From Syntrophorhabdales bacterium (lineage in GTDB: Bacteria; Desulfobacterota; Syntrophorhabdia; Syntrophorhabdales; WCHB1-27): a stretch of DNA of 64,000 nt. The stretch is taken from contig DATKNH010000116.1 in assembly GCA_035541455.1 (NCBI GenBank), positions 62,001 to 126,000 on the forward strand, read 5' to 3'. Positions 41,218-46,012 of this stretch are shown piece by piece (position 1 is the first letter of the stretch; every line of letters begins with the position of its first letter). Under the pieces are notes generated by a model, which was given only the letters and a program-made list of their open reading frames with translations, was not told where the DNA came from and made no database searches. A program made the translations under genes and the position numbers.

Positions 41218-42387
41218 CTACTTGTTGGCTGCCTTCCTGGACGCGAGCCCTTGCTGTATCGAGGGTCTCTCCAGTCCGTAGCGATCCAGGAGGGATTCCC
41301 ATACGCCATCGTCGGTGAGCCTCAGTATGGCAAGGTTTATAGGTTTGCGTAACGGGCTCTGCTTCGGCATCGAAAGAGCGTAAAGATGAGTCCTCAATTT
41401 TGTGGGGTAGACAGAGATTCTGCCGCTGTAATCATGATTCGCATAATAGATCGCTCTCGTCTCAAAACAGAGATACCCATCGACCTGACCCGTCAGCACT
41501 GCGTTGAGTGCCTCCTCATCAGTATCGAAAAGAGTGTAATAGCCGCCTGCCTCTTTCAGCATATCCACCTGAACCGATCCTTTCTTGACTCCCAGATGCA
41601 TGTAGCGAATGTCTTCATCCTCCAGCACTTGCATCTGCTGCATCTGGTCAGTGAGTGAGTGCGTGAGCGACGCTATGACCGCGCTCAACGCAAGTCCACA
41701 GGTTATCATCCACGTCAAGGCGAGGATGCGGCCCGGCAGCGTCCTCGGATAAATACCGAAACACAAACCCGAGGCCAGGGTTGAGCCGGCCCAGTAAATG
41801 CCGGCAGCGATGCCTCTGCTCCTGGTGGGGCCAAAGTCTCCGGGATTGTTTTTCTTCTCTATGAGCCAGATCGAGACGCCCAGCAAGAAAAGCATAGCCA
41901 TGAGTATGAGAATCACCGTGAGAGTCCCCGTAGTAAAAAAGACTGAGACGGCAGCAAGCCACGGATGCTCATGTGTCGGCTGATAGACTGTCACGACCGC
42001 GTGGTGTCCCTCGCCCAGTGCTGTGGAGAAATCGAACCGTTCTTCCCTCTCCGCATTGATGAAGGTAGTCATAGCTGCCACGTCGATCGTGCTTTCTTCA
42101 AGGGCGCTTATGATGCTGTTTAAGGGCATCTCCCGAAAGACGTAGGGTCTCTTCAAATACATCGCAATAAGCTTCCAGAAGTCTACCATCGGTCCGGTCC
42201 AATTCCCCTGCTTGTCTTTACTGGTGTAAGTTTGATCAAGCTGGATTGCAACCACCAATGGTTTCTCCGGGGGATTTTCGTGTGCGATGGGTAGTCCTGT
42301 TGCCCAAACCAGGCCTGTCGTTCCCACGAAGAAAAGGACCGTCATAATCGCCTTCAACAAAAGAAGATGACGACTGCCCTTTTTCAT
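41218..42387 (-). CDS. Ionotropic glutamate receptor-like protein (solute-binding domain with inserted channel domain), copy 1
   Basis: A 389-residue protein. After a signal segment (residues 1-29), a type-3 solute-binding domain (residues about 43-140) is interrupted by a channel module: TM1 about 145-176, a re-entrant loop about 192-213 and TM2 about 218-244. The binding domain then resumes (about 262-375, HLGVKKGSVQVDMLKEAG and FETRAIYY). This is the layout of prokaryotic GluR0 and eukaryotic ionotropic receptors. The pore loop reads WAGSTLASGLCFG instead of the potassium filter TVGYG. The ATG at 42387 places the signal first; an upstream start at 42435 would overlap the preceding gene. 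The ligand is probably an amino acid or carboxylate. Confidence 0.82.
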   Translation of the reverse strand: MKKGSRHLLLLKAIMTVLFFVGTTGLVWATGLPIAHENPPEKPLVVAIQLDQTYTSKDKQGNWTGPMVDFWKLIAMYLKRPYVFREMPLNSIISALEESTIDVAAMTTFINAEREERFDFSTALGEGHHAVVTVYQPTHEHPWLAAVSVFFTTGTLTVILILMAMLFLLGVSIWLIEKKNNPGDFGPTRSRGIAAGIYWAGSTLASGLCFGIYPRTLPGRILALTWMITCGLALSAVIASLTHSLTDQMQQMQVLEDEDIRYMHLGVKKGSVQVDMLKEAGGYYTLFDTDEEALNAVLTGQVDGYLCFETRAIYYANHDYSGRISVYPTKLRTHLYALSMPKQSPLRKPINLAILRLTDDGVWESLLDRYGLERPSIQQGLASRKAANK

Positions 42388-42409
42388 GCGGTAAGAGAGC
42401 CTCTGTGAA

Positions 42410-43576
42410 CTACCGTTTTCCACGTCCGGCTCCATATCGTCTCTTTTCTTCCATCGGATTGAGCGTCCCCGTCTTGAGGTACTGGCTCAAGTCAAGTTGG
42501 TTAATGACCCCCTCGCCCATCGGACGTTCGGCGATCCTCAAGAGCGCCACGTTAAATGGCTTGCGCAGAGGGCTGTCCTTGGGCATTGCAAAGGCTCTCC
42601 TGTACGGTTTCAACTCTGTCTCGTACACGGAGAGTTTCCCCCGGTAGCGAGTTTCAGAAAGATAGCGCAGATAACCCTCATCATAGAGGAAGCCGTCGAT
42701 CTTTCCGCGCGTGAGGGCACCTATGCATTCATCGGTGTTTTCGCAGGCGGTATATCGAATTCCCATTTTTTCCAGCATCTGGACCTGAACCGAGGTGCTG
42801 AATACGCCGATGTGCATCCCTTTCAAGCGGGCGGTGTCGATTACCCAGCCTGAATAGTGCTGACTGCTCAGGTAGAAGGTGAGCGACGCGATGACCGCGC
42901 CAAACGTAATAACACAGACGACCATCCAGAATAAACCCAGGATGCGCCCCAGGCCTGTTTTCATGCTGATGCCCAAGCATATGCCTGATGCCAGCGTAGA
43001 ACCTGCCCAAAAAATGCCTGTTCCGATCCCTCTCAGAGCACCCTGCCCGAAGTACTCCTCATTCTCCTTTCTCTCGATCAGCCACGCGATGGCGCCGATC
43101 ACGACAAGGGCTGCCAGCAGGATGAGCACCACCTTCACGGTAGTCCACGAAAGGAAAATTTGGATGAGTGACAACCATGGATGGTCCCAGACCCGGTATC
43201 GCATTGCTATACCTACCTGTCCTGAACCTAGAGGTGTGGAGAGATCGAATTGTTCCTCGCGCGAAACGGAGACGATTATTGGAACAGCTGTGATGTCGAT
43301 AGCCCCTTCTTGAAGCGCTTTGAGAATCTCATTAAAGGGCATCGCCTTAAAGACGTAGGGTCGCTTCAATTCCTGCGCCACAAGATCCCAGAAATCAATG
43401 TAGCTTTTCAGCCACCGGGGATTCTCTCGTTTCGCGACATCGAGGGAAGAGGTGGAAAAGCCGACGATTAAAGGCTTGCCGGGGTATGCCTTTCTGCTCT
43501 GGTCAGTCTGTGCTATGGCCCATCCGGCCCCAAGAACAGACCATATCAAAAGAATCACTGCGCAGACGCGTTTCAT
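42410..43576 (-). CDS. Ionotropic glutamate receptor-like protein, copy 2
   Basis: A 388-residue paralogue, 22 bases upstream of copy 1. It has the same order: signal peptide (1-22), first half of a type-3 binding domain (about 34-130), TM1 (about 138-168), pore loop (183-205) with WAGSTLASGICLG, TM2 (about 210-233) and second half of the binding domain. The filter core STLASG is identical in the two copies. ATG 43576 has AAGG 6 bases upstream; a much longer frame from 43861 would add 95 residues of no protein character. The pair may form a heteromer. Confidence 0.82.
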   Translation of the reverse strand: MKRVCAVILLIWSVLGAGWAIAQTDQSRKAYPGKPLIVGFSTSSLDVAKRENPRWLKSYIDFWDLVAQELKRPYVFKAMPFNEILKALQEGAIDITAVPIIVSVSREEQFDLSTPLGSGQVGIAMRYRVWDHPWLSLIQIFLSWTTVKVVLILLAALVVIGAIAWLIERKENEEYFGQGALRGIGTGIFWAGSTLASGICLGISMKTGLGRILGLFWMVVCVITFGAVIASLTFYLSSQHYSGWVIDTARLKGMHIGVFSTSVQVQMLEKMGIRYTACENTDECIGALTRGKIDGFLYDEGYLRYLSETRYRGKLSVYETELKPYRRAFAMPKDSPLRKPFNVALLRIAERPMGEGVINQLDLSQYLKTGTLNPMEEKRRYGAGRGKR

Positions 43577-43679: not shown

Positions 43680-45068
43680 CTATTGCTTTTTCCCTTTGTT
43701 CTGAGGATCGTCCTTTGATTTTCCATCCTTCCCGTCAGGTTTCTTTTCCATAGTTTCCTCGAGAAGGATTTCCACTTCCTTCGCTTCCTGGGTGTTGCGC
43801 CCGTATTTCGCAGCGGCTTTTTCGAAATTGATCCGGGCTGCGGGCATCCTGCCAATTTCAAGGTAGTACCTGCCCAAATACTCGTAACCGATGGCTTCGT
43901 AGCCTAATCGCCCGACAACCATAGCGTACTTCTGATAAATGGAGGGGAGATTTTCTTTGTAAGGGAATAGGCTTTTCAATGCCTCCGCTGCGCCTTCGAG
44001 ATCACCGTTTCCTTCGAGTGCCGATGCGAGAAAATACGTGGCGATGGGGTCTGTCTGATCGCGCAGCACGTCAATTGCTTCTTTGAATCTCTGGGTTCTG
44101 ACATAGATCTCACCGAGAAAAAGTTTTCTGTAGGGGGAGTTCATGCCTTGAATCAGCTCTTCGGCTTTTGCATTGTTGCCCTTCAGCGTGTAGAGAAGGG
44201 CCACTCCGTACGCAGCAACCGGATCTTTGGGGTCTCTCTGGTACCTTCCCATCCACGTATCCTCTATGGCCGGGCCGAGAGGTTTATTCAGGATTTTCAG
44301 CCTTGCCTGGACGTAAGGGAAAAAATCTGTATTCACCTTGGTCTTGGGCAGGTGAATCCTGCTTTCAATTCTCGATGCTCGAACGTCAGAGTACGGGTGA
44401 GTGAGGAGATATTGAGGAATGCTTCTTTCTGACTCCGTGGCGCGAATTTTTTTCAGGAAATCTGAAAGGCCGTGACCGCTGTAACCTGACGCTTCCGCCG
44501 TTTCCAGGCCGTACCTGTCTGCCTCGTCCTCGTCTTCCCGGGAATACTTGAGAGAGACTGTTTGAGCGGCTGCCATGGTGCCGGTCATCAGGGCCGGGCC
44601 AAGAGCACCTGCACCGGGGACCATCGCTCCCAGCGTCCCCAGCAGGACCCCGGCAAGGGTTGCCCAACTCAGAGGCTTTTCTTTTTCCATCCTTTTGGCG
44701 ACATGCCGCCTTCCCACGTGGGCGAGCTCGTGAGACAGCACGCCTGCCACCTCTTCTTCCCTGTCAGCCATTTCGATGAGACCAGTGGTGACATACGTGT
44801 ACCCGCCCATAGTTGCGAACGCGTTGGGAACCGTTGACTCAACTACCGTCATTCTGACAGGAAAGGGAACCCCAGCATTTGGTTCCAGCCGTTTTGCAAT
44901 CTCTGCCATGTAAAGACAGACGTAAGGGTCAGTGTTGAGTCTGAACATCCTCAACACTTCCATGTGGATCTCTTTACCTTGTTTTGCCTCTTCTGTAAGC
45001 GTCAGAGAAAACGTGGTAAGGGGGAAACAGACAAGCAGGACTGCGGCCGTGAAGGCTTTAAATGTCAT
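43680..45068 (-). CDS. M48 family metalloprotease with TPR repeats (BepA-like)
   Basis: A 462-residue protein with a signal peptide (residues 1-21), a zinc protease domain with HELAH (113-117) and a third ligand in EDEADRYG (about 180-184), and a C-terminal TPR region (about 270-430). It ends in a Lys/Asp-rich tail. BepA-type proteins act in the periplasm in outer-membrane protein assembly and quality control. It overlaps the DD-carboxypeptidase gene by 4 bases, so both envelope enzymes are coupled. Confidence 0.9.
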   Translation of the reverse strand: MTFKAFTAAVLLVCFPLTTFSLTLTEEAKQGKEIHMEVLRMFRLNTDPYVCLYMAEIAKRLEPNAGVPFPVRMTVVESTVPNAFATMGGYTYVTTGLIEMADREEEVAGVLSHELAHVGRRHVAKRMEKEKPLSWATLAGVLLGTLGAMVPGAGALGPALMTGTMAAAQTVSLKYSREDEDEADRYGLETAEASGYSGHGLSDFLKKIRATESERSIPQYLLTHPYSDVRASRIESRIHLPKTKVNTDFFPYVQARLKILNKPLGPAIEDTWMGRYQRDPKDPVAAYGVALLYTLKGNNAKAEELIQGMNSPYRKLFLGEIYVRTQRFKEAIDVLRDQTDPIATYFLASALEGNGDLEGAAEALKSLFPYKENLPSIYQKYAMVVGRLGYEAIGYEYLGRYYLEIGRMPAARINFEKAAAKYGRNTQEAKEVEILLEETMEKKPDGKDGKSKDDPQNKGKKQ

Positions 45069-46012
45069 CGGTTATTCTTTGCCATGCGGTGGTGTTTGGT
45101 TCGTTTTGTCTTCTTCCTGGCCGATTTCTTGGCCGGAGCAGGGTTGTCTGCAGGAACCTTGTATGAAGAAAGCGTGATCGCTGACGCTCTGGCCAGTGTC
45201 AACTCCGTCCTTGTGGGAACCTTTTCATAAAGCTGCGCCAGAATTTGGACCGCATCACCCCAGAGGTTTTTGCTTCCCAGAAGTGCAAGGATGTAAATAT
45301 GACCATCCTTTTCGAAAGCTCCTACGTAGCAATGTTTTGATACCCGTGTAAAACCCGTCTTTCCGCCGACCGATGGCTCGAAACAGAAGAGAAGCCGGTT
45401 GTGGTTGGCGTAACGTATATCCTGCCTTCCCGCTTTGAAGAAGAAATACTTCTGGGAAATAATCTCCCGGAACTGCTCGTTGCCTAAGGCGTATCTAAAG
45501 ATGAGCGCCAGGTCCCAGCAGGTGCTGTAATGTCCCGGGACATAAAGACCGGACGCGTTTTTGAAGTGGGTGTTTATTGCGCCTATCTCGCGCGCCTTCT
45601 CATTCATCATGGTTGCGAAATCTTCTTCGCTTCCCGCAATAGCAAGACCCAGAGTATAGGCCGCATCATTCGCCGATTCAACCATCGTACCACTGATGAG
45701 ATCTGCGGCGGTGTAGGATTTTCCCGGCGAAAGGTTCAGCTTCGAAGCTGGTATCCTGCGCACACTCGCTGTCGCGGTAATCGGGGTTGAGCCGTCCAGC
45801 CTTTCGAGGGCGAGTATTGTGGTCATCACCTTTGTCGTGCTCGCGGGAGGGAGTTCTTCGTGATAATTCTTTCCCGCAAGTACGGCCATGCTTTCCTTTT
45901 CTACCAGCAGGTACGAGCGCGCGGAAATCTCGTCGGCTGCAAGCGCTCCGGAATAAAGAAGAGCGATGATGATCATGACAACGGGAACGACCAAAGATTT
46001 ATGCGTCATCAC
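45065..46012 (-). CDS. D-alanyl-D-alanine carboxypeptidase (peptidase S11)
   Basis: A 315-residue penicillin-binding protein of the DacA/DacF type that trims peptidoglycan stem peptides. The three active-site motifs are complete: SxxK at 58-61 (STTK), SxN at 113-115 (SAN) and KTG at 218-220. It has an N-terminal signal peptide and a C-terminal basic tail rich in Lys and Arg in place of a clear amphipathic anchor helix. It is periplasmic. Confidence 0.92.
   Translation of the reverse strand: MMTHKSLVVPVVMIIIALLYSGALAADEISARSYLLVEKESMAVLAGKNYHEELPPASTTKVMTTILALERLDGSTPITATASVRRIPASKLNLSPGKSYTAADLISGTMVESANDAAYTLGLAIAGSEEDFATMMNEKAREIGAINTHFKNASGLYVPGHYSTCWDLALIFRYALGNEQFREIISQKYFFFKAGRQDIRYANHNRLLFCFEPSVGGKTGFTRVSKHCYVGAFEKDGHIYILALLGSKNLWGDAVQILAQLYEKVPTRTELTLARASAITLSSYKVPADNPAPAKKSARKKTKRTKHHRMAKNNR

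Follow-up and report, generated by a model that had tools for sequence, protein, structure and literature searches.

Tandem glutamate-receptor-like genes of a Syntrophorhabdales bacterium with a conserved pore filter other than the potassium type

How the glutamate receptors passed between the K+-selective forms of bacteria and the poorly selective cation pores found in animals and plants has long been asked, and GluR0, the bacterial example that has been tested, selects for K+. According to the available text of one report, GluR0 carries the signature filter of the K+ channels (PMC12332018), and that of another links it to K+ flux in cyanobacteria, a recent finding (PMC13099474). The survey of Ger et al. 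in 2010, in its accessible part, covers 22 bacterial sequences in which binding lobes flank two helices and a pore loop; a K+ filter is present in 12 of them, the other 10, named Group 2, have no recognised one, and Group 2 is placed nearer to the eukaryotic receptors (PMC2950845). Unusual filters on a scaffold of the K+-channel type are found in NirBac (PMC4607889) and NaKTs (PMC5052707), which the available portions of these papers present as non-selective by experiment.

The window, i.e., the whole stretch of 64,000 nucleotides that was analysed, contains two adjacent genes whose products have the domain order and the binding-domain fold of GluR0 (Synechocystis Slr1257) and of the Nostoc GluR0 ligand core (2pyy and 1ii5 were among the matches), but show S-G-x-C-x-G where GluR0 has the K+ signature. 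The GluR0-like K+-selective class, Group 1 of Ger et al., has a filter of the TVGYG type, and the two proteins have SGLCFG and SGICLG at the aligned positions. As Group 2 is outlined in the accessible part of the survey, the pair resembles it in being bacterial and in having binding lobes that flank two helices and a pore loop without the K+ signature, the class being defined by the absence of the K+ filter (PMC2950845). With the AMPA, kainate and plant GLR receptors the pair has in common the arrangement S1-M1-loop-M3-S2, as detected end to end by profile and by Foldseek; unlike these eukaryotic receptors, it lacks an extra N-terminal domain and M4 and, judging by eye with a placement good to plus or minus one residue, also the Gln, Arg or Asn of the filter tip and the acidic residue four positions further on. 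NirBac and NaKTs differ from the pair in their filter sequences and have no ligand-binding domain of this kind; they serve as an analogy only.

Gene layout and receptor architecture

The open reading frames and their translations define two tandem genes on the minus strand: an upstream gene at 42410-43576, which codes for P0002 (388 residues), followed by a downstream gene at 41218-42435, which codes for P0001 (405 residues). The span of 41218-43576 given in the first-pass annotation is thus exact, and the two genes are indeed adjacent paralogues on the same strand. A 26-base overlap between them exists only with the first ATG of the downstream gene; with a start at Met17 (ATG at 42387, minus strand), after which a signal-like sequence is found, 22 bases would lie between the genes, and judging from the sequence this Met may be the start of P0001. 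Both frames are open and conserved, which discards a pseudogene pair.

Each protein has a signal-like hydrophobic N-terminus followed by S1, M1, a pore loop, M3 and S2. In P0002 the S1 lobe, placed by alignment and model, comprises residues 33-126 (43199-43480, minus strand, as are all the following coordinates of the pair); the AlphaFold2 model predicts M1 at residues 144-168 (43073-43147), a pore helix at 180-197 with STLAS at its end (42986-43039), and M3 at 208-241 (42854-42955), and the alignment places S2 at 245-362 (42491-42844). The same sources place the S1 lobe of P0001 at residues 56-150 (41986-42270), its predicted M1 at 169-193 (41857-41931), its pore helix, also ending in STLAS, at 205-222 (41770-41823), and M3, with Cys246 and an ASLT motif revealed by the clade alignment, at 233-266 (41638-41739); the S2 lobe, at 270-388 (41272-41628), was aligned with the Nostoc GluR0 ligand core 2pyy and with the clade described below.

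The Pfam family SBP_bac_3 scored above its cut-off in both proteins (66.3 and 42.3 bits), with a match that is split around the membrane part and spans residues 63-387 of P0001 and 60-348 of P0002. Lig_chan was detected in both with E values of 5.7e-5 and 2.4e-5, which fall under the curated cut-off of Pfam; both families were matched at E<=0.01 in all 14 full-length members of the clade. Sequence matches in the PDB included the Nostoc GluR0 ligand core, glutamine-binding proteins and eukaryotic glutamate receptors, and plant GLR3.4 matched most of P0002 (residues 33-352, 4.3e-10). A profile of the clade covers AMPA and kainate receptors end to end. Pfam, Foldseek and the clade profile concur on the layout initially claimed for the pair, a type-3 binding domain split by a two-helix channel module. 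Relatives are annotated in public records as 'transporter substrate-binding domain-containing protein'; nevertheless, the identity of a stand-alone binding protein of an ABC transporter is rejected because a pore module, formed by two helices with a pore helix and loop, lies inside the domain, and Lig_chan is matched in 14/14 members.

AlphaFold2 models built from six-row alignments reached a mean pLDDT of 69 for P0001 and 64 for P0002, with pTM values of 0.40 and 0.39. Both models contain M1, a pore helix, a coil that includes the filter, and M3, so that a pore helix plus loop between two long helices, the point on which the first-pass annotation depended, is predicted in the two proteins, with modest confidence and with part of the P0002 filter below a pLDDT of 50. 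When the P0001 model was compared using Foldseek, AMPA receptors were the top matches (best E 4.3e-17), with TM-scores of about 0.3 and a large rmsd, values that are expected if the domains are wrongly placed relative to each other; with VIA-align, amino-acid-binding proteins and GluA2 reached Z values of 15 to 17, the rmsd again being large. These model comparisons back the fold predicted for the individual parts; they do not extend to how the parts are arranged or to a tetramer.

The pore filter and the clade that carries it

The pore strings of P0001 and P0002 are WAGSTLASGLCFG and WAGSTLASGICLG, respectively. In an alignment with 12 relatives that carry TVGYGD, the columns occupied by T/S-V-G-Y-G-D correspond to S-G-x-C-x-G, which is S222-G-L-C-F-G227 in P0001 (41755-41772) and S197-G-I-C-L-G202 in P0002 (42971-42988). 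The replacement of the K+ filter in both copies, as first proposed, is borne out by this alignment; however, the STLASG core that had been taken for the filter turns out to combine the last residues of the pore helix with the first two of the filter, since STLAS lies mostly in the pore helix.

A search of 60 relatives and then of 46 genomes of the order to which the window belongs yielded 14 genes with this pore form in 11 genomes, here called the clade. A scan of further genome contigs returned four relatives, i.e., two clade genes, of which one is identical to a gene from the preceding searches, one of the TVGYGD type and one of another type, and thus added a single gene, L019, raising the total to 15, of which 14 are full length. 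In a sample of the phylum 22 of 395 genomes gave a match at E<=1e-20, and in none of the 16 matching genomes outside the order was S-G-x-C-x-G present (12 had TVGYGD or SVGYGD, and four had other filters). Among the sampled genomes, the clade was seen in no order but that of the window. One scan of viral contigs detected no viral carrier. Since the pore form recurs in 12 genomes or records, with 15 genes in all of which one is partial, and since purifying selection is seen, chance or an artefact can be discarded.

In a 31-row tree, and also in a 41-row tree calculated without the pore columns, a branch supported at 100/100 separates the clade from the other rows, and the clade adjoins the TVGYGD channels; both trees were rooted only at the midpoint, so that they are compatible with a loss as well as with a gain of the K+ filter. 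A third paralogue, unlinked to the pair, is present in the same genome (L003:1312-2541, contig C141), with the pore ATLASGVCFG; it groups with the single-copy members of other genera and not with the window pair.

Within the clade, the filter Gly (223 in P0001) and Cys (Cys225 in P0001, Cys200 in P0002) are invariant in the 14 full-length members, the filter Ser, the last Gly and a pore-helix Thr are each kept in 13, and all 15 genes show YW or FW, approximately six residues, and then G-x-C. From the pore helix through the filter no charge is found in 13/14, the exception being an Asp in one of the two copies of genome G017. Ion_trans_2, which models the K+-type pore in Pfam, was not listed at E<=0.01 for any of the 14, whereas it passed the cut-off in the five TVGYGD relatives tested (of 12); among other relatives L021 passes, L050 is just below the cut-off, and L034, L036 and L055 are not listed. 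These data bear on the idea of a channel that is K+-selective through an unusual geometry of its filter, with which the position of the clade next to the TVGYGD channels in both trees and the retained pore-helix Thr (13/14) would be consistent; the loss of both filter glycines and of the Tyr at the aligned positions, and of the match to Ion_trans_2, makes such a channel very unlikely. Likewise, a filter of small neutral residues, the absence of an acidic residue in 13/14 and two Arg shortly after the P0001 filter could suit a pore for anions or small solutes, but no sequence feature points to anions and we know of no precedent for an anion pore in the glutamate-receptor family, so this reading is held to be highly improbable.

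The pore is also where the two proteins are most alike: the most similar stretch of 17 residues between P0001 and P0002 falls there, with 14/17 identities (tied with an overlapping stretch) versus an overall identity of 41%, in agreement with the original remark that the core had been kept while the rest diverged. In the 14-gene alignment, the lowest column entropy among 347 segments corresponds exactly to GIYWAGSTLASGLCFGI, with 0.60 bits versus a median of 1.42, and the mean pairwise identity in the clade is 73% for the pore helix, 70% for the filter, 61% for M3, 50% for M1, 47% for S1 and 45% for S2. For the closest pair of genes, L011 and L012, dN was 0.005 and dS 0.27 over residues 168-258, and these values indicate that the membrane part is under purifying selection. 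Being the most conserved stretch of the clade, the S-G-x-C-x-G pore is a maintained feature; this segment could also be retained for assembly. In the TVGYGD relatives filter identity reaches 86%, above the 70% of the clade, so that the S-G-x-C-x-G filter is somewhat freer than the K+ filter.

A conserved alternative filter had been anticipated, and its conservation across the clade holds; its uniqueness does not, because several non-K+ filters occur in bacterial relatives, with at least five further types among those examined. Relatives from records of alphaproteobacterial, cyanobacterial and Vibrio plasmids show several such filters and fall outside the clade in the tree. A basic filter region, e.g., TSGR..RKN, is present in L052, L053 and L055-L059, which come from plasmid records, are alphaproteobacterial and include some Agrobacterium pAt plasmids; where annotated, they are described only as substrate-binding proteins. 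The receptor-like L034, L035 and L037, from another family of the phylum, have the pore region AAAGSSSHKRL, also of a non-K+ type. Similar filter regions are shared by L036, from a genome of the window's phylum (TGPIRYYEF), and L054, from a Vibrio record (TRGPFNYFEF), which form a sister pair in the tree (100/99) that may reflect a transfer or an old lineage. The Vibrio, Paracoccus and cyanobacterial relatives are taken by us to match organisms on the Group 2 list. Judged through these relatives, the pair appears to differ in its filter from the Group 2 proteins: their filter regions are quite unlike S-G-x-C-x-G, and they lie outside the clade. The S-G-x-C-x-G filter was not found described in the prokaryotic-receptor literature searched, which left most subscription journals outside its coverage. 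Non-K+ bacterial homologues of the glutamate receptors have been known since 2010, and by sequence S-G-x-C-x-G is a further, distinct and conserved filter type.

Ligand site, tandem copies and gene neighbourhood

The Arg of S1 is kept in 13/14 clade members. The accessible text of Ger et al. states that an Asp in S2 of GluR0 binds the amino group of the ligand (PMC2950845); the equivalent Asp is kept in 11/14, and the exceptions are P0001 (Phe) and both G017 copies (Gly and Asn), i.e., three of the four tandem copies. Directly after this position, 13/14 clade members have a Glu that no TVGYGD relative shown has there. P0002 has both ligand-site residues (Arg106, and Asp299 followed by Glu300), while P0001 keeps Arg130 and Glu325 but has Phe324 at the Asp position. 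Given the retention of the S1 Arg and the S2 Asp, an amino acid or a similar molecule is the likely ligand for most members, and this is less clear for P0001; loss of the amine-binding Asp suggests that its ligand or role is probably different from that of P0002.

Of the order's 11 carrier genomes, two have tandem pairs; in each of the other nine, some of them incomplete, one gene was detected. In the 41-row tree the members of the window pair are sisters (95/92), as are those of the G017 pair (100/99), indicating separate duplications, so that tandem pairs arose at least twice independently on the evidence of these sequences. The independent pair of the other genome (L013:1492-2724 and L013:2691-3842) includes one copy with a drifted pore, SALAAGACYD, that contains an Asp, and the S2 Asp is gone in both copies. 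The first-pass annotation took the tandem arrangement as a sign of a heteromeric receptor. Heteromers are plausible in the two tandem cases, considering the tight spacing and the divergence of the ligand site, but they are not required, because a homomer must suffice in the nine single-copy genomes.

Upstream of the pair, and on the same strand, are the genes of an M48 peptidase (43680-45068) and a D-alanyl-D-alanine carboxypeptidase (45065-46012), preceded by a promoter-like match at 46081-46053, obtained in a weak test; both genes may be co-transcribed with the receptor pair, but the arrangement is not conserved in relatives. No conserved operon partner was detected in 13 clade neighbourhoods, where shared neighbours were limited to close genome pairs, apart from rubrerythrin near two members; in a Pfam analysis of 20 neighbouring or flanking ORFs no common theme pointing to a ligand or role was observed. 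The rubrerythrin genes (L039:16289-16792 and L048:4504-5022) are close to clade members of different families, and a flavin reductase-rubredoxin gene (L042:1557-2243) is near a third. Genes of the rubrerythrin or rubredoxin type are common in anaerobes.

The absence of a conserved partner gene in these 13 neighbourhoods, and of a cytoplasmic signalling domain by Pfam, weighs against the idea of a non-conducting receptor or sensor, in which the filter would be collapsed and the membrane part would serve for assembly or for signalling to a partner. The replaced K+-filter residues, the acidic residue missing in 13/14, the further drift of the SALAAGACYD copy and the loss of the S2 Asp in three of the four tandem copies would all suit such a receptor; however, it is rather unlikely, given also that no other stretch of the clade is as conserved as the pore, on which purifying selection is strong.

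Besides the invariant filter Cys, a Cys in M3 (Cys246 of P0001, 41698-41700) occurs in 12/14 members, and every other alignment column has Cys in at most 6/14. From this distribution a channel gated or blocked by metal or redox through a ring of four filter Cys, one from each subunit, perhaps with the M3 Cys as a partner, could be envisaged, and, among 13 neighbourhoods, the two with rubrerythrin genes and the one with a flavin reductase-rubredoxin gene would agree weakly with it. Nevertheless, Cys also fits as a small neutral residue, and in AMPA receptors a Cys close to this position is, to our knowledge, not linked to metal gating, so that a gate of this type is doubtful. It is similarly improbable that the ring of Cys binds a soft metal or senses redox and joins this to an amino-acid signal, with the tandem copies adding a subunit of altered ligand site; if true, the pair would be a bacterial counterpart of the heteromeric receptors.

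Proposed channel function and its meaning

The reading that we favour, by a modest measure of confidence, is that P0001 and P0002 are subunits of a ligand-gated, poorly selective cation channel of the ionotropic-glutamate-receptor type. Since S-G-x-C-x-G takes the place of the K+ filter and neither pore helix nor filter bears a charge, K+ selectivity is not expected of the open pore; the two proteins probably form channels that are gated by amino acids and are not restricted to K+. In such a channel the pore would be built from four subunits, whose loops come in from the cytoplasmic side, and a periplasmic amino acid or similar small ligand would close the lobes and pull M3 open; by analogy with NirBac and NaKTs, small monovalent cations would most likely pass with little selectivity. 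Both homotetramers and heterotetramers may be assembled from the tandem copies.

What a non-K+ filter needs for conduction, and which ions it lets through, could be tested simply on a small bacterial receptor in which such a pore is maintained. Together with the additional filter types seen in relatives, the clade adds evidence that the K+ filter is not the sole stable state of this scaffold in bacteria.
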